A stretch of DNA of 33,886 nucleotides from a virus: positions 1 to 33,886 of IMG/VR virus record IMGVR_UViG_3300006736_004257; one strand, given 5' to 3'. Shown here one piece after another: positions 1 through 24,426 of this stretch; the stretch's first letter is position 1; each line of letters starts with the position of its first letter. Made by a program: the position numbers and the translations under genes. The notes beneath the pieces are model-generated. The model saw nothing but the letters and a program-made list of their open reading frames with translations, was not told the origin of the DNA and did not search any database.

Positions 1-1248
1 TTATTTTTTGATGGGGCGCAGATGGGGCGCAAGGTCGCCCTGGTCTGTGCTTTCTTTCTCGTATCCGAGTAGTTTTGATGCCATCGATGCCAGCGGCAGC
101 TGGTCTTCTTTAATCCATTTGGCGTATCGGGTTTCGAGTGTTCTCACGGAGGCGTGGCCCATTTGCCTGGCGATCCATTCTTTTGGCATGCCGAGGGTTA
201 GCATTTGGCTGGCGTAGGTGTCGCGACAGTGCTTTGGTCCACGGTAGCGCACTTTGGCTTTTTTCAGGTGGTAGCTAAAAAACCACTGTCTCAGGTAGTT
301 GTCTGAGGGGATTGGTTTGCCGGTGTTGGTGTTGATGAACACTGGTCGCCACTTTTCTTTTTTGATGGTTTTGTTGTCTGTCTGCATCACGTTGATGGTG
401 ATGGCTGGCAGCATGTAGGTGATTTCCTTCTGTCGCTTTAGTATATCGATGGCGGGGGTTATGAGTTCAACTGTGCGGCGGCCGGCTTTGGTTTTCGGGC
501 GCTTATACTGTTCTCTGACTCTGGCGCGACATACGTCGATTTCCCAGGATTCGAGATCGATATCATCCCAGCCCAGGGCGATCAGTTCGGACGCGCGCAG
601 GCCTGACCAGATGTCAAAGATGATCGCGTGGTGTTCGTTGCGCCGTGCTGTTTTTGTGGTGGCTATTCGTTCTATCTCGGCCCTGGTGAACGGATCAGGT
701 GGGTCGATGTCTGTGGCCAGGTTGTCGATGTCGGGCAGCTCGGTGATGATTTTGTCTTTTTTGGCGGTCTGCCAAAGGGCGCGGAAAACTACCAGGACTT
801 CGTTGATGGTTTTGTTTTTCAGCCCTACCAGGTCTACGGCTATCCATTCGTCGATCTCGGATTGCGCGACGGTACGGAAGGTGCGGTTGTCCCATTTGGG
901 GCGGATGTGGGTGTCGGCTTTTGATTTGTAGCCGCGCATGGTACTGGTGGCCACGGTTGTTTGTTTGACCCGGAGGTATTCGTCGAGCGCCTGGCCAATG
1001 GGCTTGTCTGGCCTGGCGGCTGAAAAAAAGCCCGCACGTTTTGAGTGCGGGAAGTGGCTGGCGTAGTCGAACTGGCCTCGGGCTATTTCGTAGAGTATGG
1101 ATGCTCGTTTTTGCTCGGCGTAGCGGATGTTGGCTTTGGTTGGATCGAGCCCGCGCAGGGTTTCACGGCAGCGCTGGCCCCGATACACAAATGAGATCCT
1201 GATTGAGTCATTGCGGATTTCTACTCCCTCTGGCGCTGCTGTTGTCAT
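1..1248 (-). CDS. int: Phage tyrosine recombinase (integrase)
   Basis: A 415-aa site-specific recombinase that would integrate and excise the prophage. The N-terminus (about 10-60) resembles the Arm-binding DUF3596-type domain, about 85-170 is the SAM-like core-binding domain, and about 185-390 is the catalytic domain. Visible catalytic residues are Arg218 (SGLRASEL), the K-x-K strand near 252-254, Arg342 (CRDTYAS), His365 (MGHAS) and Tyr375 (ETRYAKW). In the usual H-x-x-R box the first position is Lys339, with a His at 340, a variation from the classic motif. No integron-integrase-specific insertion is recognisable, so it is a phage Int and not IntI. The start at 1248 lies inside the end of the excisionase gene, so the two are translationally linked; its AGGAA is unusually close to the ATG. 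It is the last gene of the leftward early operon, and its stop is the first base triplet of the window. Confidence 0.95.
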   Translation of the reverse strand: MTTAAPEGVEIRNDSIRISFVYRGQRCRETLRGLDPTKANIRYAEQKRASILYEIARGQFDYASHFPHSKRAGFFSAARPDKPIGQALDEYLRVKQTTVATSTMRGYKSKADTHIRPKWDNRTFRTVAQSEIDEWIAVDLVGLKNKTINEVLVVFRALWQTAKKDKIITELPDIDNLATDIDPPDPFTRAEIERIATTKTARRNEHHAIIFDIWSGLRASELIALGWDDIDLESWEIDVCRARVREQYKRPKTKAGRRTVELITPAIDILKRQKEITYMLPAITINVMQTDNKTIKKEKWRPVFINTNTGKPIPSDNYLRQWFFSYHLKKAKVRYRGPKHCRDTYASQMLTLGMPKEWIARQMGHASVRTLETRYAKWIKEDQLPLASMASKLLGYEKESTDQGDLAPHLRPIKK

Positions 1249-1423
1249 TTCCTGCCATCCACTCTTGTATCAGCGGGAGATTGTAGGCGATTCTGCCGTC
1301 CGGCGCTTTACGCCAGTGTTTGCCCTCCAGCCAGGCACCAGATTGCCGTTTGCCCTCGAGGGCTTTTTCGGTGTAACCGACGTCCCGCTCGATGATGCGA
1401 GAGAGAACCCACTGTGCGCTCAT
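1208..1423 (-). CDS. xis: Excisionase (DUF1233-like Xis)
   Basis: A 71-aa basic protein whose body (WVLSRIIERDVGYTEKAL, then an aromatic-rich WLEGKHWRKAPDGRIAYN segment and LIQEWM) matches the pattern of the DUF1233 putative excisionase family. These are winged-helix DNA-binding directionality factors. It overlaps the start of int by 41 bases, the usual xis-int pairing. An AGGA about ten bases before the ATG at 1423 supports the start. The DNA just upstream is the outermost attC site of the cassette array, so xis is the first ordinary phage gene on that side. Function by family resemblance and position; no experimental support. Confidence 0.82.
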   Translation of the reverse strand: MSAQWVLSRIIERDVGYTEKALEGKRQSGAWLEGKHWRKAPDGRIAYNLPLIQEWMAGNDNSSARGSRNPQ

Positions 1424-1453: not shown

Positions 1454-1505
1454 CTATAACACCCCGTTGCGCTGGACCTGCGGCCAGCGAACAGGACTGT
1501 TAGGT
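1454..1505 (+). other. attC site 0 (leftmost)
   Basis: R''-like CTATAAC at 1454-1460, spacer of 5, L'' GTT(G)CGCTGG at 1466-1475 with G1469 unpaired, loop 1476-1483, L' CCAGCGAAC at 1484-1492, spacer of 6, and R' GTTAGGT at 1499-1505, which fits GTTRRRY fully. It is a compact 52-nt attC with a right spacer one base longer than the left, as in the aadA site. The peptidase gene's stop codon (complement of TTA, 1500-1502) is inside R'. Confidence 0.88.
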
Positions 1506-1862
1506 TTTATCCCAGCGTGCTGGCCCATTGGTTCTGGAATCCACATGCACGAAAGTGGGGTACACGCCAAACCCGTATTTGCCTGGGTATCTTTCGCACA
1601 GCCATAGGTAAACAGCGTGCGGGTTCGGCACCGGTAAATCGAGCGCCCGACAACGTGGATGCTGACTGCTGTCAGTCGATCCAACAGCCTTGGATCGGTT
1701 GTACGCATAGCACCGCGCCGCACTACTCGGTGTGATCGGCACACCTACAAACTCGCGCACTTCGTCGGCAATGCGCAGCGTTTCCGTATCCATAGAGTCG
1801 AGTCCGCACCCGCACTTGCAGGCCATTTCGTGACGTGAAAAATATTTGCTTATGTCGCCCAT
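1500..1862 (-). CDS. M15-type peptidase (D-Ala-D-Ala carboxypeptidase/endolysin-like), cassette gene
   Basis: A 120-aa protein matching the Peptidase_M15_3 pattern. The N-terminal SRHEMACKCGCG signature (residues 9-20) is followed by the metal-binding region around 67-76 (SSQHPRCRALD, His and Asp ligands) and a C-terminal FVHVDSR with the third ligand His. The family cleaves D-Ala-containing peptide bonds of peptidoglycan and is common among phage endolysins. There is no signal peptide. It is the sole gene of cassette 1. A strong AGGAGG lies 7 bases before the ATG at 1862, and the TAA stop is formed by the R' box of attC 0. Its place in the early operon, 22 kb from the late lysis genes, is odd for an endolysin. 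A role in wall remodelling or as cassette cargo is possible. Confidence 0.85.
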   Translation of the reverse strand: MGDISKYFSRHEMACKCGCGLDSMDTETLRIADEVREFVGVPITPSSAARCYAYNRSKAVGSTDSSQHPRCRALDLPVPNPHAVYLWLCERYPGKYGFGVYPTFVHVDSRTNGPARWDKT

Positions 1863-1876
1863 CAGGGCCTCCTAAA

Positions 1877-1950
1877 ACCTAACCAGTAAATCCAGCTGAC
1901 CACTCACTCGCTGGCACTCGTTCGCGTCAGCTGATCATGGTCGGTTAGCG
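1877..1950 (+). other. attC site 1
   Basis: R'' ACCTAAC at 1877-1883 fits RYYYAAC fully. L'' is AT(C)CAGCTGAC at 1890-1900 with one extra C, and L' GTCAGCTGAT lies at 1926-1935. R' GTTAGCG is at 1944-1950. The ten-base arms pair perfectly apart from the extra C. The TAA stop of the 112-aa gene (1945-1947) lies within R'. Confidence 0.9.
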
Positions 1951-2283
1951 CGCCAATGCAGCACGCTGCTCGTATGCGTCGCCATCATCCAGCCAACTCT
2001 TTGCCATCGCGGCACAACATGCGCTGCACCAGCGGTATGACATGAGTTCGCCATCAAATACAGCGGCCATTGTCCTGATCCGCTCGCCGGGTCGTATCTC
2101 CTGTTCACACAGGAAGCACTTGCCGCCTTTACGTGCCGTGGCCATCTTGTCTCTCAGAATGCGGTCATCTGGTGAGCCAAAATCACCCTCGAAAGGCCCG
2201 CAAGCCAGACAGTCGTTCTCGGAAAACGCGCTAACAAGCGGGTCAACTGCGACCGTAGAAAGCGGTTCGGTTTTATCGTTCAT
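1945..2283 (-). CDS. Small cysteine-rich (zinc-binding?) cassette protein
   Basis: A 112-aa protein of unknown function. The second half has paired cysteines, KCFLCEQEI (about 56-59) and WCSACCAAM (about 84-88), separated by a basic GERIRTM segment. This resembles a small treble-clef or zinc-ribbon fold seen in uncharacterised phage proteins. An AGGAG sits 8 bases before the ATG at 2283. The first ~18 codons lie inside attC 2, so the N-terminal sequence is dictated by a recombination site. The TAA stop comes from the R' box of attC 1. It is cassette 2 of the array. The real start could be downstream if the attC-encoded N-terminus is dispensable. Confidence 0.65.
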   Translation of the reverse strand: MNDKTEPLSTVAVDPLVSAFSENDCLACGPFEGDFGSPDDRILRDKMATARKGGKCFLCEQEIRPGERIRTMAAVFDGELMSYRWCSACCAAMAKSWLDDGDAYEQRAALAR

Positions 2284-2334
2284 ATCAATCTCCTGTGCGC
2301 CGCTTTCTACGGCGCGTTACCCTTGGCGTTATGG
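2229..2334 (+). other. attC site 2 (long, VCR-sized)
   Basis: R'' CGCTAAC at 2229-2235, spacer of 4, L'' GGGT(C)AAC at 2240-2247 with C2244 unpaired. A perfect 13-bp stem follows, CCGTAGAAAGCGG (2253-2265) with its complement at 2300-2312. Then L' GTTACCC at 2316-2322, spacer of 5, and R' GTTATGG at 2328-2334. At 106 nt it is close to VCR length. The left arm and loop overlap the start and Shine-Dalgarno of the 112-aa gene. Confidence 0.9.
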
Positions 2335-2336
2335 CG

Positions 2337-2534
2337 CTACTGAAAATCAGCAGCATGGGGGCAACTGCCAGGCTCACACCAACCCATGCCGCTTGAGTTT
2401 TCTTCCAGCTTGCACTGTGGCCCTTGGCCTGGGTCTAACTTTTCGCCCTCGTGGTCGCGATCTTTGCATATTGCTTGAGCCTCCAGCCATGCCTCTCTCG
2501 CCACCGCAATTAAATCGTCAAATGTCTTTTCCAT
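2337..2534 (-). CDS. Small cassette protein of unknown function
   Basis: A 65-aa acidic protein not recognised. The first half is predicted helical (MEKTFDDLIAVAREAWLEAQ); the second half is loop-like with cysteines at about 23, 40, 52 and 57, which might bind a metal. The reading frame is open upstream to 2669, but a GGAGG eight bases before the ATG at 2534 fixes the start. That start also sits just after attC 3, as expected for a cassette. The TAG stop lies 3 bases from the R' box of attC 2. The end sequence (TAG then CGCCATAAC) is the same as that of the gene at 3465-3803, so the two may share cassette ancestry. Confidence 0.6.
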   Translation of the reverse strand: MEKTFDDLIAVAREAWLEAQAICKDRDHEGEKLDPGQGPQCKLEENSSGMGWCEPGSCPHAADFQ

Positions 2535-2548
2535 TCGGCACCTCCGCG

Positions 2549-2619
2549 CCATAACAATTGCAATCAGTTCGCTGCGCGGGATGTCGCTGACGCTCCACCC
2601 CTGTTGCAGCGGGTTAGTT
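2549..2619 (+). other. attC site 3
   Basis: R'' CCATAAC at 2549-2555, spacer of 3, L'' TGCAA(T)CAG at 2559-2567 with T2564 unpaired, L' CTGTTGCA at 2601-2608, spacer of 4, R' GTTAGTT at 2613-2619. Nearly the same left and right arms occur in attC 5, so the two are one attC family. The TAA stop of the next gene (2614-2616) is in R'. Confidence 0.9.
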
Positions 2620-2817
2620 GCTCTTTTCAAAGCAGTCGGCAACATGGTTAAACTTCTCAACATCGCCATCTTCTATGACCCAATACAGCTTTCCCCGGCA
2701 CTCTTTCCGGGTGATGTTTTTTGAGTTGTTCAGCCAGAGGTTGCTGTTTTGCCATGCCCCAAAAGCCACACCAGCAAATGTCACCGCCATAGCCACTAAA
2801 ATAAATAGTTCGTTCAT
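2614..2817 (-). CDS. Small single-pass membrane cassette protein
   Basis: A 67-aa protein, not recognised. Residues 3-22 (ELFILVAMAVTFAGVAFGAW) form one hydrophobic membrane segment. A polar C-terminal domain follows, with two cysteines (about 41 and 62) that could form a disulphide. The start at 2817 is preferred over the ATG six codons upstream because GGAGGAAAG directly precedes it. Cassette 4: the gene lies between attC 3 and attC 4, with its TAA stop within attC 3 R'. Possible roles (superinfection exclusion, membrane-acting toxin or immunity) are guesses from size and topology only. Confidence 0.65.
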   Translation of the reverse strand: MNELFILVAMAVTFAGVAFGAWQNSNLWLNNSKNITRKECRGKLYWVIEDGDVEKFNHVADCFEKSN

Positions 2818-2833
2818 CTTTCCTCCGAAACGC

Positions 2834-2905
2834 AACTAACAAGTCGCGCAAGTTGCTGTCGCTCGGACCCGCAAAAAGCGCGGGCCGCTTCGCTCAGGGT
2901 TAAGC
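2834..2905 (+). other. attC site 4
   Basis: R'' AACTAAC at 2834-2840, spacer of 5, L'' GCG(C)AAG at 2846-2852 with C2849 unpaired. The inner stem is CCCGC with GCGGG around an A-rich loop (2868-2884). L' CTTCGC is at 2888-2893, spacer of 5, and R' GTTAAGC at 2899-2905, a full GTTRRRY match. The CTCGGACC... interior resembles attC sites of environmental integrons. The stop of the Lar-like gene (2900-2902) is in R'. Confidence 0.92.
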
Positions 2906-3148
2906 GGCTATTCGTTTATTCCAGGCTTCCGCAGCGTCAACCTTGGTTGCCCGGTAAAAGCCCTCTGGCGGCATATACATTGGGCACTCCGGTTCGTCTT
3001 GCCCATCACCGCCGTTGGCGCACATAACCACTTTCTGGTAATACTCTGGCGTTGGTTCGTACTCCCACATTTCTGCGGCATATCCGCAAAAAGGGCAACG
3101 CTCCAGCCGGTCATCCCACCCATCAATTTTTCTGTACATTTCATGCAT
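2900..3148 (-). CDS. Lar-like restriction-alleviation family protein, cassette gene
   Basis: An 82-aa protein with the layout of the Lar_restr_allev/Lar-like zinc-finger family. It has CPFCG at 18-22, a hydrophobic MWEYEP segment, a second cysteine cluster (VVMCANGG... EPECPMY) at about 42-57, and the terminal AAEAWNKR that is nearly diagnostic for the family. Rac prophage Lar modulates type I restriction (EcoK) in favour of modification, so this cassette may help the phage evade host restriction. Many members remain untested. GGAG eight bases before the ATG at 3148 supports the start. Its TAA is formed by attC 4 R'. It is cassette 5 of the array. Confidence 0.8.
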   Translation of the reverse strand: MHEMYRKIDGWDDRLERCPFCGYAAEMWEYEPTPEYYQKVVMCANGGDGQDEPECPMYMPPEGFYRATKVDAAEAWNKRIAA

Positions 3149-3173
3149 TTTTATTACTCCGTAGCGGGTCGCC

Positions 3174-3243
3174 GCTTAACAATTGCAATCAGTACGCTGC
3201 GCGGGACGGCTGAAAAGCGCCGCCCCTGTTGCAGCGGTTATCA
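3174..3243 (+). other. attC site 5
   Basis: R'' GCTTAAC at 3174-3180 is a full RYYYAAC match. Spacer of 3, L'' TGCAA(T)CAG at 3184-3192 with T3189 unpaired, inner GC-rich stem, L' CTGTTGCA at 3226-3233, spacer of 3, R' GTTATCA at 3237-3243. It shares both arms with attC 3, while its central stem differs, as expected for the variable terminal structure. Confidence 0.9.
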
Positions 3244-3438
3244 GTTATACCCATGATGGGCGTACCACTCTGCGCGGGTACCAGCGAATACGGTTTCTGA
3301 CTTCCCACACTTACAGCAAGTGCGCATATCGTGATGCGTTTTTTTCCCAACACTTAATATCAGCTGGCCTTCCCAGAGATGCCGACAGAAAAGACTGATA
3401 ACAAACCGGTCAACGCGACTCATTACGCCTGGCTTCAT
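3241..3438 (-). CDS. Small Cys-rich cassette protein of unknown function
   Basis: A 65-aa basic protein, not recognised. The C-terminal third has CCKCGK (about 41-46) followed by WYAHHGYN, whose Cys and His residues could make a small zinc site. The GGAGGT preceding the ATG at 3438 and the first ~14 codons lie inside attC 6, so recombination-site DNA doubles as ribosome-binding site and coding sequence. A start five codons later (3423) is possible. The TGA stop overlaps the R' box of attC 5. Cassette 6, the shortest of the array. Confidence 0.6.
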   Translation of the reverse strand: MKPGVMSRVDRFVISLFCRHLWEGQLILSVGKKTHHDMRTCCKCGKSETVFAGTRAEWYAHHGYN

Positions 3439-3462
3439 TCGCTCGTTACCTCCGGGTTATGG
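3396..3462 (+). other. attC site 6 (rightmost)
   Basis: R'' TGATAAC at 3396-3402, spacer of 5, L'' GGT(C)AACG at 3408-3415 with C3411 unpaired, L' CGTTACC at 3444-3450, spacer of 5, R' GTTATGG at 3456-3462. L boxes and R' resemble attC 2. It contains the Shine-Dalgarno and start of the 65-aa gene and abuts the stop of the next gene (3465). Confidence 0.85.
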
Positions 3463-3464
3463 CG

Positions 3465-3803
3465 CTAATCCCATTTTTTCCGGTTAGCAATTTTCCATAT
3501 CTGACCGGTAAGCTCTAACAGCATTAAGCTGCCAACGTGTTCCTGGAGGTGGGTAAAAATATCCCGCCGTGATTGCTCCAGCTTTTCAAGCTCTGCAACC
3601 GGAACTGCAACATAACCATCCGGTGATAGGTCCAGTGCAATCTGGCGTACTTTTACAGCCAGGTGTTTCTCGTGGCTGTAGGTTTTCAGTGTTTCCGGGC
3701 AATCGATTATTCCCGTGCTTGGTATGCTGTGGCTCTCTTTTAAAGCCTCTGCTTGGCTGTCAATGTAGTCAGCCACTTCAATCAAAATTGTTTTTGTGTC
3801 CAT
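3465..3803 (-). CDS. Conserved-looking small phage protein, unknown function
   Basis: A 112-aa protein, not recognised. It is mostly helical with a Lys/Glu/Gln-rich C-terminal half (VAELEKLEQSRRDIFTHLQEHVG). The start at 3803 is chosen over the upstream ATG at 3833, which overlaps the previous stop, because GGAG lies five bases before it. Its TAG is three bases from the R' box of attC 6 and shares the end sequence of the 65-aa cassette gene at 2337. It may be a former cassette gene whose own attC has been lost; no attC is seen upstream at 3804-3830. It follows the cupin-like gene by about 26 bases in the leftward operon. Confidence 0.6.
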   Translation of the reverse strand: MDTKTILIEVADYIDSQAEALKESHSIPSTGIIDCPETLKTYSHEKHLAVKVRQIALDLSPDGYVAVPVAELEKLEQSRRDIFTHLQEHVGSLMLLELTGQIWKIANRKKWD

Positions 3804-3829: not shown

Positions 3830-4282
3830 TCATCTGTCCGGCCGGGTGCCACAGTACCGCCACCAGTCCCGTGCGCTTGTTGCTACGCGCTCCTCGGATC
3901 CATCGGTGTTGATGAAGCTCCAAAAAGGGAACCGCCTCGGCCCGACAATCATCAGGGTCCAGGTTTCTGGTTTGATCCAGCCTATCCGGTGAGTTCGGGT
4001 GCGGCCGATAATCGCGGGCATACCCAAAGGGCGGCGCGATCGGGTGGTCAGGTTTTGGCCAGAGAGCAGGTGCTCGGTGTAGCGTCCAGCGAGCACAATG
4101 CTTAGGGCCCGCCATGGGTGGTTGTGGTGGTGCCGGTCTCCATCGGCGGACAGAAAACGGTGAAGCCAGAACTGGACCCCGGCAAGAGAGCCCAGATAGT
4201 AGCGCTGCAGGTAGGGTTGTCCCTGGACATCAATCTGCTTCATGGGCTTGTTGCGAGTCATTTTGATAAGACATTTTCTCAT
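3830..4282 (-). CDS. Cupin-like phage protein
   Basis: About 150 aa. A beta-rich body has HHHNHPW followed about 8 residues later by a strand ending LAGRYTEHLL and a later THRIGWI-x-TWTLMIVG. This arrangement is seen in small phage proteins of the cupin/double-stranded beta-helix type, in which the His cluster would bind a metal. Substrate unknown. The frame is open to 4420. The ATG at 4282 is taken because GGAG lies ten bases upstream; ATGs at 4261 and 4243 (MKQIDVQGQPYLQRYYLG) are plausible and have weaker ribosome-binding sites. It overlaps the gene upstream by about 50 bases. Early-operon location only; role unknown. Confidence 0.6.
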   Translation of the reverse strand: MRKCLIKMTRNKPMKQIDVQGQPYLQRYYLGSLAGVQFWLHRFLSADGDRHHHNHPWRALSIVLAGRYTEHLLSGQNLTTRSRRPLGMPAIIGRTRTHRIGWIKPETWTLMIVGPRRFPFWSFINTDGSEERVATSARDWWRYCGTRPDR

Positions 4283-5092: not shown

Positions 5093-7822
5093 TTAGTTAT
5101 TGTCTGGCACGGATACGGTGAGGCCGTATTCGCGCAGTTTGTTGAGGCTGATGGCGTGCAGGTGGGCGACCCGGCTGCGGCTGATGGTGCGCTCTACGTC
5201 GTCGAGGGCGATTATCCCGGCGCGCTTCATTTGGTCGTGGAATACCCGGGCTGATTTCACGGGCAGTGCGTCGTATTTGGCGCGCAGTGCGTTGTTTTGT
5301 GAGAGGTGCTGCATGCAGTGGGTGGCGCGGAATAGCAGCAGGGTGTCGGTGCCGTCGTCGCTCTGTTCGAATTTGTAGGGTGCGCTGAACTGGCCGCGAT
5401 CGATCTCGCCCAGGACGACTTCGAGGATCCACACCCATGGCTCGCGAGCGGCACGGGATTCGAGCACATGGCTGTTCATTTCGGTGACGAGGTCGTCTGG
5501 CAGGTCGCCGTGGTCTACGGGTAGGCCGGCAAACTCACAGAGCAAACGCCAGGCGGTGGCCAGCGCCGCATAGTTGACGACCATGCGTGCGCCACCGTCG
5601 TCGTTGTGACTGGCTGCGGATCTGCTGCGGAGTTTTTCGCAGGCTGTGTTGTACCGTTGGCGGACGCGCTGAGGGTCCAGTGTTGACAGCCATTGCAACC
5701 ATTCGCGCACCGGGAAGCGGGGGAGGGTTTCTGGCAGCAGGTTTCCGCGCCGGCCGCTGAGCTGGGTGCGGACGACTTTGCCGAGCAGGCTGTCGACGGG
5801 CACGTCTTCGCCTGCCAGGAGGACCGGGGCGCACAGCAGGTATTCGGTCATGTCGGCGCCACGCCGGGTGACGGTGAACTGGTAGGTTTCTTGCAGCAGC
5901 GCGACGGCTTTGTCGATGATGTCCTGTCGTCTCGCAGAGAGTTCTTCCCAGCCGACGGGGTGCGATGTGTGAGAAACGGAGGTGATAAGGCGGAACTCGG
6001 TGCCGAGGCTTTGGCCGGAGAACATGGTGAAGCCGATGGTGCGCTCCAGTCGCTTGATCAGTGTGGATTTGCCCGCCCCTTTGTCGGCCTGCAGCACCAT
6101 GTGTGGCCAGAATCCGAGCAGCGCTTTGAGGTGTCCGCCCAGGGCCCAGCAGAGCAGCAGGGATGCGGCGTTGCTTTTGAAGGTGTTCTGGTAGGCGGAT
6201 ATGACGTGTGCTGCGTCGCTGATTGGCCCGCGAGGAAATTGCAGGTTGTGGTAGGGGCACTGTTTGTCGGGTTCGCTGAAATAGCTGTCCGGCCCTTCGT
6301 TGATGGCGGGCCGGCTGTCCCGGTAGCAGAGGCCGACGAAGTTGGCGGCGTTGCGTGCGCCGAGGTCGGTGCCGCGTTCCCAGATGGCGAGCATGCGGCT
6401 GAACTGCTGGGGGCGAAACACCGGGCCGAATTTGTTCCAGTTGGTGAGGTTGTGCAGGCCGTCGTCGGACATGACTCGCCGGAGCAGGGTGTTGCCGTGG
6501 CGGGGGATTTGTACGGAGGCGGCAAAGACTATGTTGGGCTGGGTGTCCGGTTCGCCGGTCATGGTGGCCTGGGCGCTGGCAACGGTGATGCGAGAAAGGG
6601 CCGCCAAACGAAAACCGCAGATGTCTTCGTAGCGCAGGGTGCGCTCGCCTTCTTCGTCTGACACTTCTTTGACCATGCTGGTGAAGTCGGCTTTGACGCG
6701 GTATTTCCAGTAGATGGCGAAGTCGTGCGCGGGCAGGAATAACCGTTTTTTGCCTGGCTGCTCGGTGGTGCCCGGCAGTCCGGGGATTAACCAGGGTTCG
6801 AGGGTTTCCAGCGCCTGTCGAGTGAGGTCCGGACCTTTCTCTCGCAGGTGGTCGTTGATGTCGTTGATGTCTTCCCAGGGTGCCTGGTCTACCAGCATGG
6901 CGGGGATGTTCATGCCGGTGAGTTGGTCTACTACACGCCAGGCGGCGACCAGCCCGGGCCGCTCGCCAGCTTTTGGGCCGCTGGTGGTGGGCTTGTCGTT
7001 ATCCAGGCAGAGCACGACGCGCTTGCCGCGCAGCGGTGCCCAATCGATGTCCTGGTTGTTGGTGCCGCGTATGGCCACGGCAGCCCAGCCCTTGAGCCGG
7101 CCGGTTTGCTGGGCGATGGTTTCGACGGTTAGGGCGTTGATGGCGCTCTCTACGATGACGACGGTGTGGGCGCGCTCCAGTCGGTGTTTGCAGGATGTCC
7201 AGATTACCCCGCTTTTTTCGCCCTGTGATTTGGTTTTCAGGTCGCCGTTGAGGGTTGGGTCCAGGTAGCGGTAGTCCACGCCCAGCACGGCGCCGGTGGT
7301 CAGGCTGCGGCAGATGGTGGCGATGGCCGGGCCGCCATAGCCAAGTTGCCCTGGCTGTTTGCTGGTTGAGGTCCAGGACGAGAACCCGAGGGTGCGTCTT
7401 GCGATAGCGGTTTTTATGGTGTCGGCATCGATGCCGCGCTGGTTTTGTAGGTAGTCGATAGCCTGGTCTGGATTTCGCAGGCATTGCTGGGCGATGTATT
7501 CGATGGTCGATATGGGCTGGTGGCTTGGCTGCTCGGGTTTTGGATCTGCGGGGAAGCCGAACAGGTCGCGCACGCGCTTGATGGCGGTGGATGGGTCGCA
7601 GTTGTCGACGTAGCGCACCAGGTCGAAGCAGTCGCCACCGGTGTCGGCGCTAAAATCTTTCCAGCGCAGCTCGCCACCGTTGGCGGTGTAGATAGAGAGC
7701 GACGGGCTTTTGTCGTCGTGGTGAGGGCTCCGATAGTTGCCGGACGGATCCGGGCGCTCCAGGCCGAGCATTTCGGCCAGGGAGTGGAGATCCACTCTTG
7801 CTTTGATTTCGTGCAGCTGCAT
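5093..7822 (-). CDS. Phage primase-helicase (CHC2-like, Toprim, P-loop)
   Basis: A 909-aa replication protein. Residues about 5-95 resemble the DnaG-type CHC2 zinc-binding domain but have SPHHDDKSPSLSI and DTGGDCFDLV where the canonical CPFH...CFGC-GGD occurs, so most zinc-ligand cysteines are missing. A Toprim domain follows: VVIVESAINAL (221-231, Glu225) and CLDNDK (273-278). A P-loop DKGAGKST (580-587) and a HPVGWEEL segment (about 622) mark the ATPase/helicase-like domain, and the C-terminus is probably a DNA-binding tail. It would prime and unwind phage DNA, replacing the P2 gpA-type initiator, which is absent. The start at 7822 is preceded by ACGGGGCTGAC and lies one base from the stop of the 56-aa gene upstream. 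Confidence 0.9.
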   Translation of the reverse strand: MQLHEIKARVDLHSLAEMLGLERPDPSGNYRSPHHDDKSPSLSIYTANGGELRWKDFSADTGGDCFDLVRYVDNCDPSTAIKRVRDLFGFPADPKPEQPSHQPISTIEYIAQQCLRNPDQAIDYLQNQRGIDADTIKTAIARRTLGFSSWTSTSKQPGQLGYGGPAIATICRSLTTGAVLGVDYRYLDPTLNGDLKTKSQGEKSGVIWTSCKHRLERAHTVVIVESAINALTVETIAQQTGRLKGWAAVAIRGTNNQDIDWAPLRGKRVVLCLDNDKPTTSGPKAGERPGLVAAWRVVDQLTGMNIPAMLVDQAPWEDINDINDHLREKGPDLTRQALETLEPWLIPGLPGTTEQPGKKRLFLPAHDFAIYWKYRVKADFTSMVKEVSDEEGERTLRYEDICGFRLAALSRITVASAQATMTGEPDTQPNIVFAASVQIPRHGNTLLRRVMSDDGLHNLTNWNKFGPVFRPQQFSRMLAIWERGTDLGARNAANFVGLCYRDSRPAINEGPDSYFSEPDKQCPYHNLQFPRGPISDAAHVISAYQNTFKSNAASLLLCWALGGHLKALLGFWPHMVLQADKGAGKSTLIKRLERTIGFTMFSGQSLGTEFRLITSVSHTSHPVGWEELSARRQDIIDKAVALLQETYQFTVTRRGADMTEYLLCAPVLLAGEDVPVDSLLGKVVRTQLSGRRGNLLPETLPRFPVREWLQWLSTLDPQRVRQRYNTACEKLRSRSAASHNDDGGARMVVNYAALATAWRLLCEFAGLPVDHGDLPDDLVTEMNSHVLESRAAREPWVWILEVVLGEIDRGQFSAPYKFEQSDDGTDTLLLFRATHCMQHLSQNNALRAKYDALPVKSARVFHDQMKRAGIIALDDVERTISRSRVAHLHAISLNKLREYGLTVSVPDNN

Positions 7823-9519: not shown

Positions 9520-9594
9520 AAATGCGTTCATGTTGGGTTGATTATGCACACAAAAACGATCATTGCAAGAGGTTGTGCATACAAATGAGTTCAT
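9520..9594. promoter_or_regulatory. Repressor operator array (three related sites)
   Basis: Three related 12-mers occur at regular intervals: AAATGCGTTCAT at 9520-9531, AAAAACGATCAT at 9552-9563 and AAATGAGTTCAT at 9583-9594. Start-to-start distances are 32 and 31 bp, about three helical turns. The third is embedded in the near-palindrome AATGA-GT-TCATT and covers the repressor start codon (9585). The second lies within the leftward promoter. The flanks of sites two and three also match (TATGCACAC and TGTGCATAC). Probably bound by the XRE repressor, the gp16-like protein, or both. Confidence 0.6.
9541..9568 (-). promoter_or_regulatory. Leftward early promoter
   Basis: On the minus strand, TTGCAA (complement of 9563-9568) and CATAAT (complement of 9541-9546) are separated by 16 bases, a fair sigma-70 promoter with 4/6 and 5/6 matches. 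Transcription would start near 9534, 30 bases ahead of the gp16-like ATG. Operator site two (9552-9563) fills its spacer, which fits direct repression. Confidence 0.55.
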
Positions 9595-9929
9595 TGGGCG
9601 ATAGGCTTCGCAGCGAACGAGAAAGGCTAGGTTTAAACCAGGAGGATTTTGGTCGGGTCGGGGGCGTAAATAGAAATAGTCAGGCGAACTATGAAAAGGG
9701 GGCTAGAAGCCCTGACTCGTCATATTTGGCCGCGATCGCCGCCGCAGGTGTCGACGTGTTGTATGTGTTGACTGGGGACAGGACCCCCCAGCCAGAGCAA
9801 GCGCTGAGCGTCAGAGAGCAATCAGTTGTCTACAATTTCCGGGTCCTTTCGGAGGCAGATAAAGCTGCAATACAGCGTCTCTCTGGTGCGCTGGCGCAAT
9901 CGCCCGACGACGAGCTGAACGAGGGCTGA
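9585..9929 (+). CDS. XRE-family phage repressor (CI-like)
   Basis: A 114-aa protein. The helix-turn-helix domain (about 4-60) reads LGDRLRSERERLGLNQEDFGRVGG, NRNSQANYEKGARSPDSSYLAAIAAAGVDVLYVLTG, the XRE pattern typical of short prophage repressors. The remainder is a helical oligomerisation tail without a LexA/UmuD-type protease domain, so RecA-triggered self-cleavage is not expected. The frame is open from 9522, but the protein pattern begins at the ATG at 9585, which overlaps operator site three. This would allow autorepression, including at translation-start DNA. Divergent from the early operon. It would maintain lysogeny. Confidence 0.88.
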   Translation: MSSLGDRLRSERERLGLNQEDFGRVGGVNRNSQANYEKGARSPDSSYLAAIAAAGVDVLYVLTGDRTPQPEQALSVREQSVVYNFRVLSEADKAAIQRLSGALAQSPDDELNEG

Positions 9930-22408: not shown

Positions 22409-22875
22409 TTATCTGCCCTTTATTGCTTTGGTGATGCCGTTAGCCACCGCCGTCTCAAAGTTGTCCCAGTAATTCCGCTCCAGAAAGAGCGCCATGCCCA
22501 TGGTTTGTTCGTTGTCCGGTTCTGCAGCCCCAGGCAGGTGTTTCTGTACCAGGGCCTGCAGGTGCGTATAGCCGAGCGCGGCGATCTCGTCCGCTACGTC
22601 TCGCGCTTTTTTACTGCCACCGCCACGTCGGGCTTGTACAGCTCAAGCAGTTCCCCGGCCAGGTCGGTGACGTTGGCAGGGTTGTGCTGCAGCTCGGTCA
22701 GCAGCTCCCGGCTGTCGTCGGTCACACTGGCCGCCAGCAGGTTGTTCATGGCGTTGAACGTGTTTTTGCTGGCACCGTTGATAAAGGCGATGTAGTGCGG
22801 ACGCTCCACGGCGAACCGCAGTGTGCGTCCGTCGTCCAGGTCGAGAGTGATGTTTGCAGCAGTGTTTTTACTCAT
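22409..22875 (-). CDS. Tail assembly chaperone E+E' fusion made by -1 frameshift
   Basis: The zero frame runs MSKNTAANITLDLDDGRTLRF ... PDVAVAVKK and ends at 22594 as a 93-aa product. Over the slippery A-AAA-AAG (22606-22612), a -1 shift continues for 65 codons (ARDVADEIAALGYTHLQAL ... ERNYWDNFETAVANGITKAI) to a TAA at 22409-22411, giving a 155-aa fusion. P2 E/E' and lambda G/GT tail chaperones work this way: short and long forms in a fixed ratio guide tape-measure packing. The -1 frame has no own start codon or Shine-Dalgarno, so it is not a separate gene. Its stop is 4 bases before the tape-measure ATG. The sequence shows the frames and the site; the shift itself is inferred. Confidence 0.85.
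22594..22875 (-). CDS. Tail assembly chaperone E (short form)
   Basis: A 93-aa acidic protein before the tape measure, matching the small TAC family by position, size and pattern (DGRTLRFAVERPHYIAFINGASKNTFNAMNNLLAA, VTDLAGELLELYKPDVA). It is the unshifted product of the E/E' pair. The ATG at 22875 overlaps the holin-like gene end by 8 bases. Confidence 0.8.
   Translation of the reverse strand: MSKNTAANITLDLDDGRTLRFAVERPHYIAFINGASKNTFNAMNNLLAASVTDDSRELLTELQHNPANVTDLAGELLELYKPDVAVAVKKRET
22606..22612 (-). other. Programmed -1 frameshift slippery site A-AAA-AAG
   Basis: On the minus strand the heptamer lies in register X-XXY-YYZ, 9 bases before the zero-frame TAG. A-AAA-AAG is the most efficient class of slippery heptamer in enterobacterial chaperone genes. 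A strong downstream stimulator hairpin was not identified. Confidence 0.8.
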
Positions 22876-23107
22876 GATGTGATTCCCGTTGTTGTTGTCT
22901 AAGCCTTGCTTTCAGTTCTTCGTGAAACTTCTCGCGCTCCAGCGCCATATTCAGTTTTTTGTAGTGCCAGTTGACCAGCATGGTGATAAACCCGGTGACC
23001 AGCACACCCAGGGATATCCACTGGTTAAACGTCAGCCCCCACAGCGCCCCGAATACCACCGTGAGCCACTGCAGGATGAGGTTGTGCTTCTCCACTCTAC
23101 AGGCCAT
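22868..23107 (-). CDS. Small membrane protein, probable holin (second lysis membrane protein)
   Basis: A 79-aa protein. A short basic N-terminus is followed by two adjacent hydrophobic segments (about 9-25, LILQWLTVVFGALWGL; about 27-44, WISLGVLVTGFITMLVNW), then a charged coiled C-terminus (MALEREKFHEELKARLRQQQRE). This is the class II holin layout. GGAAAGAAGG lies directly before the ATG at 23107. It overlaps the end of the larger holin by 11 bases. It could also be an antiholin or spanin component, but no lipobox is seen. Confidence 0.7.
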   Translation of the reverse strand: MACRVEKHNLILQWLTVVFGALWGLTFNQWISLGVLVTGFITMLVNWHYKKLNMALEREKFHEELKARLRQQQRESHHE

Positions 23108-23588
23108 CCTTCTTTCCTGACCGGGCGCTGAACACCTGTACCAGCAGGGGCAGCACGTTCTGCATTGCCCTCTCGCCAAACAGGAAGCCCAGCACCAGGA
23201 AGTTGATAACAATCAGCGCCGTCTGCTGCTGTTCGTTGAGGCTCCAGGTTGCAAACCATTGGAAGTCGAGCCACAGCGTGGCAAACCCCCACAGCGGCCG
23301 CTGGCAGCCTCGCAAAAAGAGCACCAGCGGGCCGAGTATCGGTATCGCCTTGATGTCTTTGGCGGTGCCCTCCAGCTCACCAATTCTCTTGGTCATCGCC
23401 TCCGATGCTTCCTGCGTCGCGGCATCGGCATCCCGCTGTTTTTGCAGCTCCAGATTCATCAGCTCCGCTTTGAGTGCGGCTTTTTCTCCCTCGCTCATGT
23501 CCGGCGGGAAGTAGGTCTTTGCCACATCAAAGGCCAGCGCCCCGATGCCGGACGTGGCTGCACTGGCGATTTTTTTCAGCAGGTTCAC
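23097..23588 (-). CDS. 3TM-type holin
   Basis: A 163-aa protein with GTG start. It has an N-terminal amphipathic part and a long charged coiled region (GEKAALKAELMNLELQKQRDADAATQEASEAMTKRIGELEG), followed by hydrophobic helices at about 82-98 (AIPILGPLVLFLRGCQRPLWG), 102-115 (LWLDFQWFATW) and 122-145 (ALIVINFLVLGFLFGERAM). This matches the 3TM holin family. The frame is open to 23714 but the GTG at 23588 overlaps the previous stop (GTGA) and follows a G-rich Shine-Dalgarno. It would permeabilise the inner membrane. Confidence 0.78.
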   Translation of the reverse strand: MNLLKKIASAATSGIGALAFDVAKTYFPPDMSEGEKAALKAELMNLELQKQRDADAATQEASEAMTKRIGELEGTAKDIKAIPILGPLVLFLRGCQRPLWGFATLWLDFQWFATWSLNEQQQTALIVINFLVLGFLFGERAMQNVLPLLVQVFSARSGKKDGL

Positions 23589-24205
23589 AGGTCCGCCCCC
23601 TCGATCAGCGTGTAGGTAAAGCGGTTGCCGTAGCGGATGGCGGACAGACGGCAAAGCGACATCAGCAAGGCAAAGTCCAGCGGGTTGGCCAACACCTGGC
23701 AACCTGCGCTCCACTTGTCCACCTGGTGGCTGGGCAGGGCCTGAGCGGCGCGGTGGCAGTTAATGCCAAACAGCCCGGTTTGCCTGTCTCCATCGGTATC
23801 CACCACGCCATCCCGGTTGTTATCCCGGCAAACGGTGACAGGGCCAACCTGCACCAGCGCGCTGTATTTGCCCTGGTGCATGCCCATAGTCCACAAGCCG
23901 CTGTACTGGCCGGGCATAACCACGGCGGTGCCTGCTACATTTAGCGGGTTCTCCAGGTAAAACAGGCCGGGGTCGGTGGTGCAGCGCCACGCAAACAGGT
24001 GCGGTTGCCCGTCGGTATAAAACGCCGCGCAAAACCAGTCGTTAAACGTGTTGGCGTTGCTGTCTGCGGTGCGAATGCCGACCAGGTTCAGGTTGTAATC
24101 GCCCCGATCAAACCACTGATAGCCATGGGCTATCACGGCCTGTTCCAGTTGCTCAAAGGTGGGCGGCTGAGCGGCTTTCGGTTTTCTCGCTGGGCGCTTT
24201 GTCAT
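23585..24205 (-). CDS. Late peptidoglycan-active protein (L,D-transpeptidase/YkuD-like), endolysin candidate
   Basis: A 206-aa protein. The C-terminal half has FGINCHRAAQALP followed by VDKWSAGCQVLANPLDFALLMSL. The H...S-x-G-C-Q signature with about 14 intervening residues resembles the YkuD active site (H-X14-SHGC), with Cys as nucleophile. The N-terminus (PTFEQLEQAVIAHGYQWFDRGDYNLNLVGIRTAD) is a separate module. Enclosed by the TraR/DksA gene and holins, it occupies the place of P2 endolysin K, and no classical lysozyme is found in the window. It may cut, not cross-link, the cell wall. The ATG overlaps the preceding stop (ATGA). Confidence 0.6.
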   Translation of the reverse strand: MTKRPARKPKAAQPPTFEQLEQAVIAHGYQWFDRGDYNLNLVGIRTADSNANTFNDWFCAAFYTDGQPHLFAWRCTTDPGLFYLENPLNVAGTAVVMPGQYSGLWTMGMHQGKYSALVQVGPVTVCRDNNRDGVVDTDGDRQTGLFGINCHRAAQALPSHQVDKWSAGCQVLANPLDFALLMSLCRLSAIRYGNRFTYTLIEGADL

Positions 24206-24426
24206 GTGCAAAACCCTTTTTGCTGTTGTTCCTGGTGGCGGTATCCCTGGCACTCTGTGCAGCAGTCAATCCCGCCCATTTGTCGCCGCTGTGGCGCTAT
24301 TTCTTCCCCGCAGTCCAGGCAGTGGGTGAGGCTTGGCAGCCCGCTGCGGTCATTTTTTCGGGCTGCAGCCAGGGCCATATCCCTGGCCCATTGCTCTGCC
24401 TGTTCGGCCCGGTCGGCCTCATCCAC
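24202..24426 (-). CDS. TraR/DksA-family C4 zinc-finger protein (late copy)
   Basis: A 74-aa protein with an N-terminal helix (DEADRAEQAEQWARDMALAAARKND) and a C4 finger HCLDCGEEIAPQRRQMGGIDCCTECQGYRHQ. P2-like phages commonly carry one such gene near the lysis region. Here it lies between the tail tube and the endolysin-like gene, whose start it overlaps (ATGA). It is the paralogue of the early gene at 4873-5076. Confidence 0.88.
   Translation of the reverse strand: MDEADRAEQAEQWARDMALAAARKNDRSGLPSLTHCLDCGEEIAPQRRQMGGIDCCTECQGYRHQEQQQKGFCT

Follow-up and report, generated by a model that had tools for sequence, protein, structure and literature searches.

A gene for a small Lar-like zinc-ribbon protein lies between the primase operon and the xis-int genes of a temperate P2-like phage, raising the question of whether it is carried by a mobile cassette and whether its product acts on host restriction. 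The window analysed here is the whole IMG/VR virus record IMGVR_UViG_3300006736_004257 (33,886 bases). We conclude from its sequence, with a probability of about 0.85, that this Lar-family gene is one of six promoterless integron-type cassettes in the early operon of the phage; this figure covers the cassette and Lar-family assignments and not the function of the product.

An integron-type array between primase and integrase

The terminase of the window phage is nearest to those of Pseudomonas phages (for example phi3), followed by Vibrio and Klebsiella P2-like phages (approximately 47% identity), and its primase is nearest to Burkholderia P2-like phage primases (approximately 55% identity). 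The array spans 1500-3456 and is flanked by the primase operon and xis-int. A single strand carries the primase, the cassettes, xis and int, and these genes diverge from an HTH repressor-like gene (Table 1), an arrangement which makes plausible the early operon proposed by the sequence-only reading, with a putative promoter. A gene near the array (3830-4240) has relatives in two other array-bearing genomes, L128 (43%) and L170 (38%), as well as in L079. The phage's own lysis genes, judged by eye, apparently lie near 22868-24253, besides the M15 peptidase cassette.

Seven successive segments with complementary GTTRRRY-type ends form a chain in the window that scores 30, while the maximum for 100 Markov shuffles of the whole record was 10. 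Each cassette has a GTT-type R box at one end and its reverse complement at the other, and the end boxes of the segments are, in order, GTTATCAGT, GTTAAGCGGC (Lar), GTTAGTTGC, GTTATGGCGC, GTTAGCGCG and GTTAGGTTTTA. Segment 3456-3806 was considered as a seventh cassette and judged to be a resident gene (Table 1); its removal from the chain leaves six cassettes, the number given by the sequence-only reading.

Table 1. Features of the cassette array and its surroundings in the window.
Feature	Position	Strand	Observations
Phage tyrosine integrase	1..1248	-	Arm-DNA-bind_2 and Phage_integrase matches; TIGR02249 16-20 bits against a cut-off of 265
Excisionase-like gene, adjoins int	1208..1423	-	Relative beside int in L168, 46% identity
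Terminal hairpin recombination site, first of array, in place of attI	1455..1505	+	Near-identical in lineage-B phages
Cassette 7 ORF, 120 aa, M15 peptidase, endolysin-like	1500..1862	-	PF08291 E 5e-15; PHROG 894 endolysin E 5e-26
attC, cassettes 6/7	1877..1950	+	PSSM p 0.005
Cassette 6 ORF, 112 aa, three CxxC pairs	1945..2283	-	PHROG 19515 (function unknown) E 1e-18
attC, cassettes 5/6	2229..2334	+	Perfect 13-nt inverted repeat (I23) and cassette 6 start codon; PSSM 12.4, 0/19243 background pairs as high
Cassette 5 ORF, 65 aa	2337..2534	-	Ends GTTATGGCGC; no family match (Pfam, PHROG)
attC, cassettes 4/5	2549..2619	+	About 80% identical to the 3174-3243 attC (direct repeat D1); PSSM p 0.013
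Cassette 4 ORF, 67 aa, one hydrophobic (membrane-like) segment by eye	2614..2817	-	Ends GTTAGTTGC
attC, cassettes 3 (Lar)/4	2834..2905	+	PSSM 6.5, p 0.0004
Lar-like zinc-ribbon ORF, cassette 3	2900..3148	-	82 aa, ATG start; PF14354 31.4 bits
Lar cassette unit, G|TT to G|TT, antisense reading (ORF and upstream attC)	2900..3237		Complementary ends GTTAAGCGGC/GCCGCTTAAC
attC, cassettes 2/3	3174..3243	+	PSSM 7.7, p 0.0004 on +; p 0.12 on -
Cassette 2 ORF, 65 aa, Cys-rich (CCKCG)	3241..3438	-	Ends GTTATCAGT; no Pfam match
attC, cassette 2/resident 112-aa gene	3396..3462	+	PSSM 8.1, p 0.0003; contains cassette 2 RBS and start
112-aa ORF ending at last attC	3465..3803	-	Probably resident; only a 7-nt end match including its own start codon; layout as lineage-B conserved gene
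Primase/helicase	5093..7822	-	Toprim_3 match; in same-strand operon
HTH repressor-like gene	9522-9929		Divergent from primase-cassettes-xis-int

The sites between the segments (approximately 68-107 nt) show attC features, and the six window attC sites carry complementary R boxes of the form G|TTRRRY ... RYYYAAC. A PSSM was trained on 44 attC sites from intI-proximal regions of genomes from the family of Marinomonas balearica, thus representing one bacterial family. With this model each of the six window sites is significant on the + strand, at p <= 0.013, and the - strand gives no significant score. The terminal site fits the attC PSSM on neither strand; comparison with its lineage-B counterparts (L002, L113 and L116-L119; see below) revealed one compensatory pair change in the stem. 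With attC sites, complementary R boxes and no integron integrase, the window array has the features of a CALIN, that is, of integron-type cassettes without an integrase; it departs from the common, though not required, arrangement in which gene and attC run the same way. The 3396-3462 attC shares approximately 20 nt (CATAACCCGGAGGTAACGAGCGA) with the last attC of the unrelated phage L116, with the RBS embedded within the attC.

No phage or plasmid record matched the window array in a DNA search. The array is also not detectable in the examined region of the G213 prophage, a closer relative of the window phage (primase 72% identical), so it is more likely to have been acquired or lost by individual phages than to be a constant feature of the group.

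Cassette exchange and gene polarity in related arrays

Patterns built from the window sites revealed similar arrays in at least four more phage or prophage groups; the chain hits L114 and L038 and the hits L182, L183 and L185-L187, which have no convincing attC or chain, were left out. Lineage B (L002, L113, L116, L117, L118, L119 and L156) consists of podovirus-like phages with a portal related to that of Vibrio phage VvAW1. L128, the full record of L003, has ten cassettes beside its own int, and L184 has four antisense cassettes, which were found by a pattern that ignores gene direction. The G180 prophage (L170, 2818-4991) has a five-cassette antisense array just upstream of the primase, and the G180 genome also holds an intact integron integrase (399 bits).

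The upstream flanks of lineage B are 94-97% identical in the pairs compared, yet these phages carry four unrelated cassette pairs (L002; L113; L116/L119/L156; L117/L118). The pairs encode Lar-like and ASCH-like proteins, proteins of 61 and approximately 65 aa, a protein of approximately 93 aa with a 79-aa lipoprotein, and a protein of approximately 114 aa with a Cys-rich protein. Every variant has GGCGGCATAACC on one side and TAACATTCCTG on the other, thus indicating that the breaks fall at R boxes, and the exchange junctions are the G|TT boxes at which the integrase cuts. L117 and L118 carry the same two cassettes (99.85% identical) with differing DNA directly beyond the terminal site, which points either to the array also being mobile as a unit or to replacement of the flank. 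The mobile cassette that the sequence-only reading had assigned to the Lar-like gene is strongly supported by the integron-type sites, by the cassette swaps in relatives and by a second Lar-like cassette in L002, a phage unrelated to the window phage.

Of the 44 bacterial control sites, 41 have AACAA after the R'' box, and the longest ORF is sense to attC in 52 of 57 control cassettes. The phages show the opposite arrangement. Of their 21 sites, 20 have AACAA and the genes on different strands, and antisense orientation to attC was counted for 26 of 27 cassettes, or 30 of 31 once the four of L184 are added. This last count was kept even though the one L128 cassette scored as sense is in fact antisense (true start 3276). 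Fisher's test of the phage against the bacterial cassettes (26/27 vs 52/57, excluding L184) gives p 1e-15, an optimistic value because neighbouring cassettes are treated as independent. One lineage-B attC, the last in L113, misfits the PSSM, and counting hairpin bulges was abandoned as a measure of orientation because it is too noisy.

The exchange pattern bears on the same question. Each lineage-B variant has its own attC body beside the conserved upstream gene but the same terminal body, and this combination fits a G|TT crossover only if attC lies on the strand opposite the genes. A reading in which the genes run along attC was rejected, as the bodies vary and stay constant at the ends opposite to those it predicts and the sequence models also disagree with it. 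Start codons lie inside the upstream attC body for cassettes 2 and 6 and for the L116 lipoprotein gene, which is sensible if the attC body travels with its gene, and 28 of 33 cassette genes stop at the TAA of the R box. Inverted, cassette-swapping phage arrays are a new form of phage integron cassettes, which are themselves known (Qi et al. 2023, PMC9892861); a search of the open-access journal literature found no report of inverted or antisense cassette arrays.

Recombinase, mechanism and relation to known systems

No integron integrase above the TIGR02249 cut-off was found in the array-bearing phage records, several of which are fragments, and the window phage's own integrase was rejected as the cassette recombinase on its score with this model (Table 1). 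A mechanism is proposed where a host integron integrase, acting in trans, would gain and lose cassettes through the hairpin attC bottom strand, and the cassettes would be transcribed from a phage early promoter. As the genes are opposed to attC, the recombining bottom strand would be the non-template strand of the operon; that transcription exposes this strand is a guess. If the inverted polarity is true, it would also separate the expression of phage cassettes from that of the bacterial pool. Ordinary phage mosaicism at short linker repeats, with no integron recombination, would agree with phage records that lack an integron integrase gene, but it is highly improbable given the complementary cassette ends, the bacterial-type attC motifs and the exchange at G|TT.

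Integrons and CALINs have been described in phages by Qi et al. (2023, PMC9892861), who reported IntI1-mediated recombination of some phage attC sites with attI1 and suggested counter-restriction cargo in the form of methyltransferases. The present arrays resemble those CALINs in combining phage attC sites and cassettes with no adjoining integrase. In TJE1, the published case checked by eye, attC and genes run in the same direction, whereas the present arrays are antisense; they are often int-proximal in an early operon, and near-identical phages exchange their cassettes. The sedentary chromosomal integrons of the Marinomonas balearica family share with the phage arrays the AACAA after the R'' box and the GCG or GGG before G|TT, but their cassettes are mostly sense, often longer, and adjoin an integron integrase. 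Marinomonas balearica L100 (approximately 1386-1453) has an attC with phage L boxes and its gene in sense, the sole genuine-looking match in an 84,980-species genome collection.

We tentatively suggest, at rather less than even odds, that unrelated temperate phage groups keep their own pool of inverted cassettes, expressed from phage operons and apart from the bacterial pool, from which host integron integrases would shuffle swappable early genes against differing host defences. Accessory-gene swapping by recombination is known in phages, although a dedicated site-specific mechanism has rarely been pinned down. Near-identical phages with entire cassettes exchanged at the integron crossover make this swap route directly testable. 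If the Lar-like and similar cassettes counter host defences, they would be the phage counterpart of bacterial integron defence cassettes.

The Lar-like product and the other cassette cargo

The Lar family signature reported by the sequence-only reading was recovered in an ORF at exactly the coordinates it had given. CPFCG occupies residues 18-22 and AAEAWNKR residues 72-79, and the TAA stop of this ORF is supplied by the TTA in the recombination box G|TTA. The protein passes the Pfam model PF14354 Lar_restr_allev (E 2.3e-7, 31.4 bits against a cut-off of 28.6) and matches PHROG 599 'Lar-like' (E 8.5e-6), but falls below the NCBIfam TIGR03655 cut-off (32.6 against 39.6 bits). It has the first CxxC knuckle and the AEAWNKR motif, while its second cysteine pair is C43-X11-C55, not CxxC. 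Among solved structures it gives a weak nigerythrin knuckle match alone (E 0.9), and a structure model based on three sequences was set aside as uninformative owing to its low confidence (pLDDT 59).

Two relatives of the Lar-like protein pass TIGR03655, namely RalR of E. coli K-12 and a protein of L120. RalR tops both Lar models among the proteins tested (TIGR03655 55 bits, PF14354 53.5 bits). We take lar and ralR to be the same gene, as these model matches suggest. In the Rac prophage this gene occupies a place comparable to that of the window gene, immediately before the xis-int end of its early operon (upstream of rcbA, xisR and intR), and its product shares the CPFCG knuckle and the AxxxWN(K)R motif. 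Unlike the window gene, it lies outside any cassette, has CxxC as its second knuckle and is annotated as an endodeoxyribonuclease toxin with an antisense RNA, RalA. In L120 (1545-4112), a DUF3850-Lar fusion gene is flanked by D12-class and C5 DNA methyltransferase genes, which fits a possible restriction/modification role for the Lar-like gene.

In the function favoured here, the Lar-like product would tune host type I restriction/modification or otherwise act early in infection on DNA-modifying enzymes. Three narrower roles can be weighed within and beside this reading. As a restriction-alleviation factor, the protein would boost type I modification and thereby protect incoming phage DNA early in infection. 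The Lar family matches point this way, as do the L120 relative between two methyltransferases, the methyltransferase genes in the cassettes of Qi et al. (PMC9892861) and the report, as summarised in PMC3915230, that Rac Lar alleviates restriction and enhances modification. The missed TIGR03655 cut-off, an aligned identity to RalR of only 32% over a short alignment, the altered second zinc knuckle and the toxin annotation of the family founder argue against it, and we regard this role, put forward by the sequence-only reading, as a family-level guess that is possible but doubtful.

The same founder suggests a zinc-ribbon protein that, like RalR, binds or cleaves DNA, acting as a toxin or a host-takeover nuclease and not in anti-restriction, since the best match to the Lar models is described as a DNase toxin (PMC4147584). 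This appears unlikely; the window protein is not among the matches to the RalR equivalog model NF007260 at E <= 1, a model on which K-12 RalR scores 166 bits. The protein could instead be a small zinc-ribbon accessory factor with another role, for example as an adaptor to a host DNA or RNA enzyme, and 'Lar' by its shared knuckle only. Of 29 cassette proteins taken from four groups, approximately one third are small, mutually unrelated and Cys-rich or zinc-ribbon-like, and Lar domains occur also in DUF3850 fusions, so that such a role is a realistic prospect, if short of an even chance; it has to be set against a Lar profile match which exceeds the Pfam cut-off and extends over the knuckle as well as the AEAWN motif.

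Among the 29 cassette proteins, two are Lar-like and nine have at least four cysteines and a CxxC; single matches were found to the M15 peptidase, DUF551, DUF7352 and zinc-ribbon families. The remaining window cassettes had been put forward as candidates for anti-defence or superinfection functions. None of the ten array proteins tested matched PADLOC, whose models cover defence and not anti-defence, and the cassettes are better described as ordinary early phage accessory genes in cassette packaging, such as the M15 peptidase and small zinc-ribbon or membrane proteins. Their content resembles that of the early-operon accessory regions of temperate phages, where Lar, DUF551, ASCH-like, zinc-ribbon and Cro-like HTH proteins also occur, although not as recombining cassettes. 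One L184 cassette (2847-3128) holds a gene for a Cro/C1-type HTH regulator, and cassette exchange could thus alter phage regulation.
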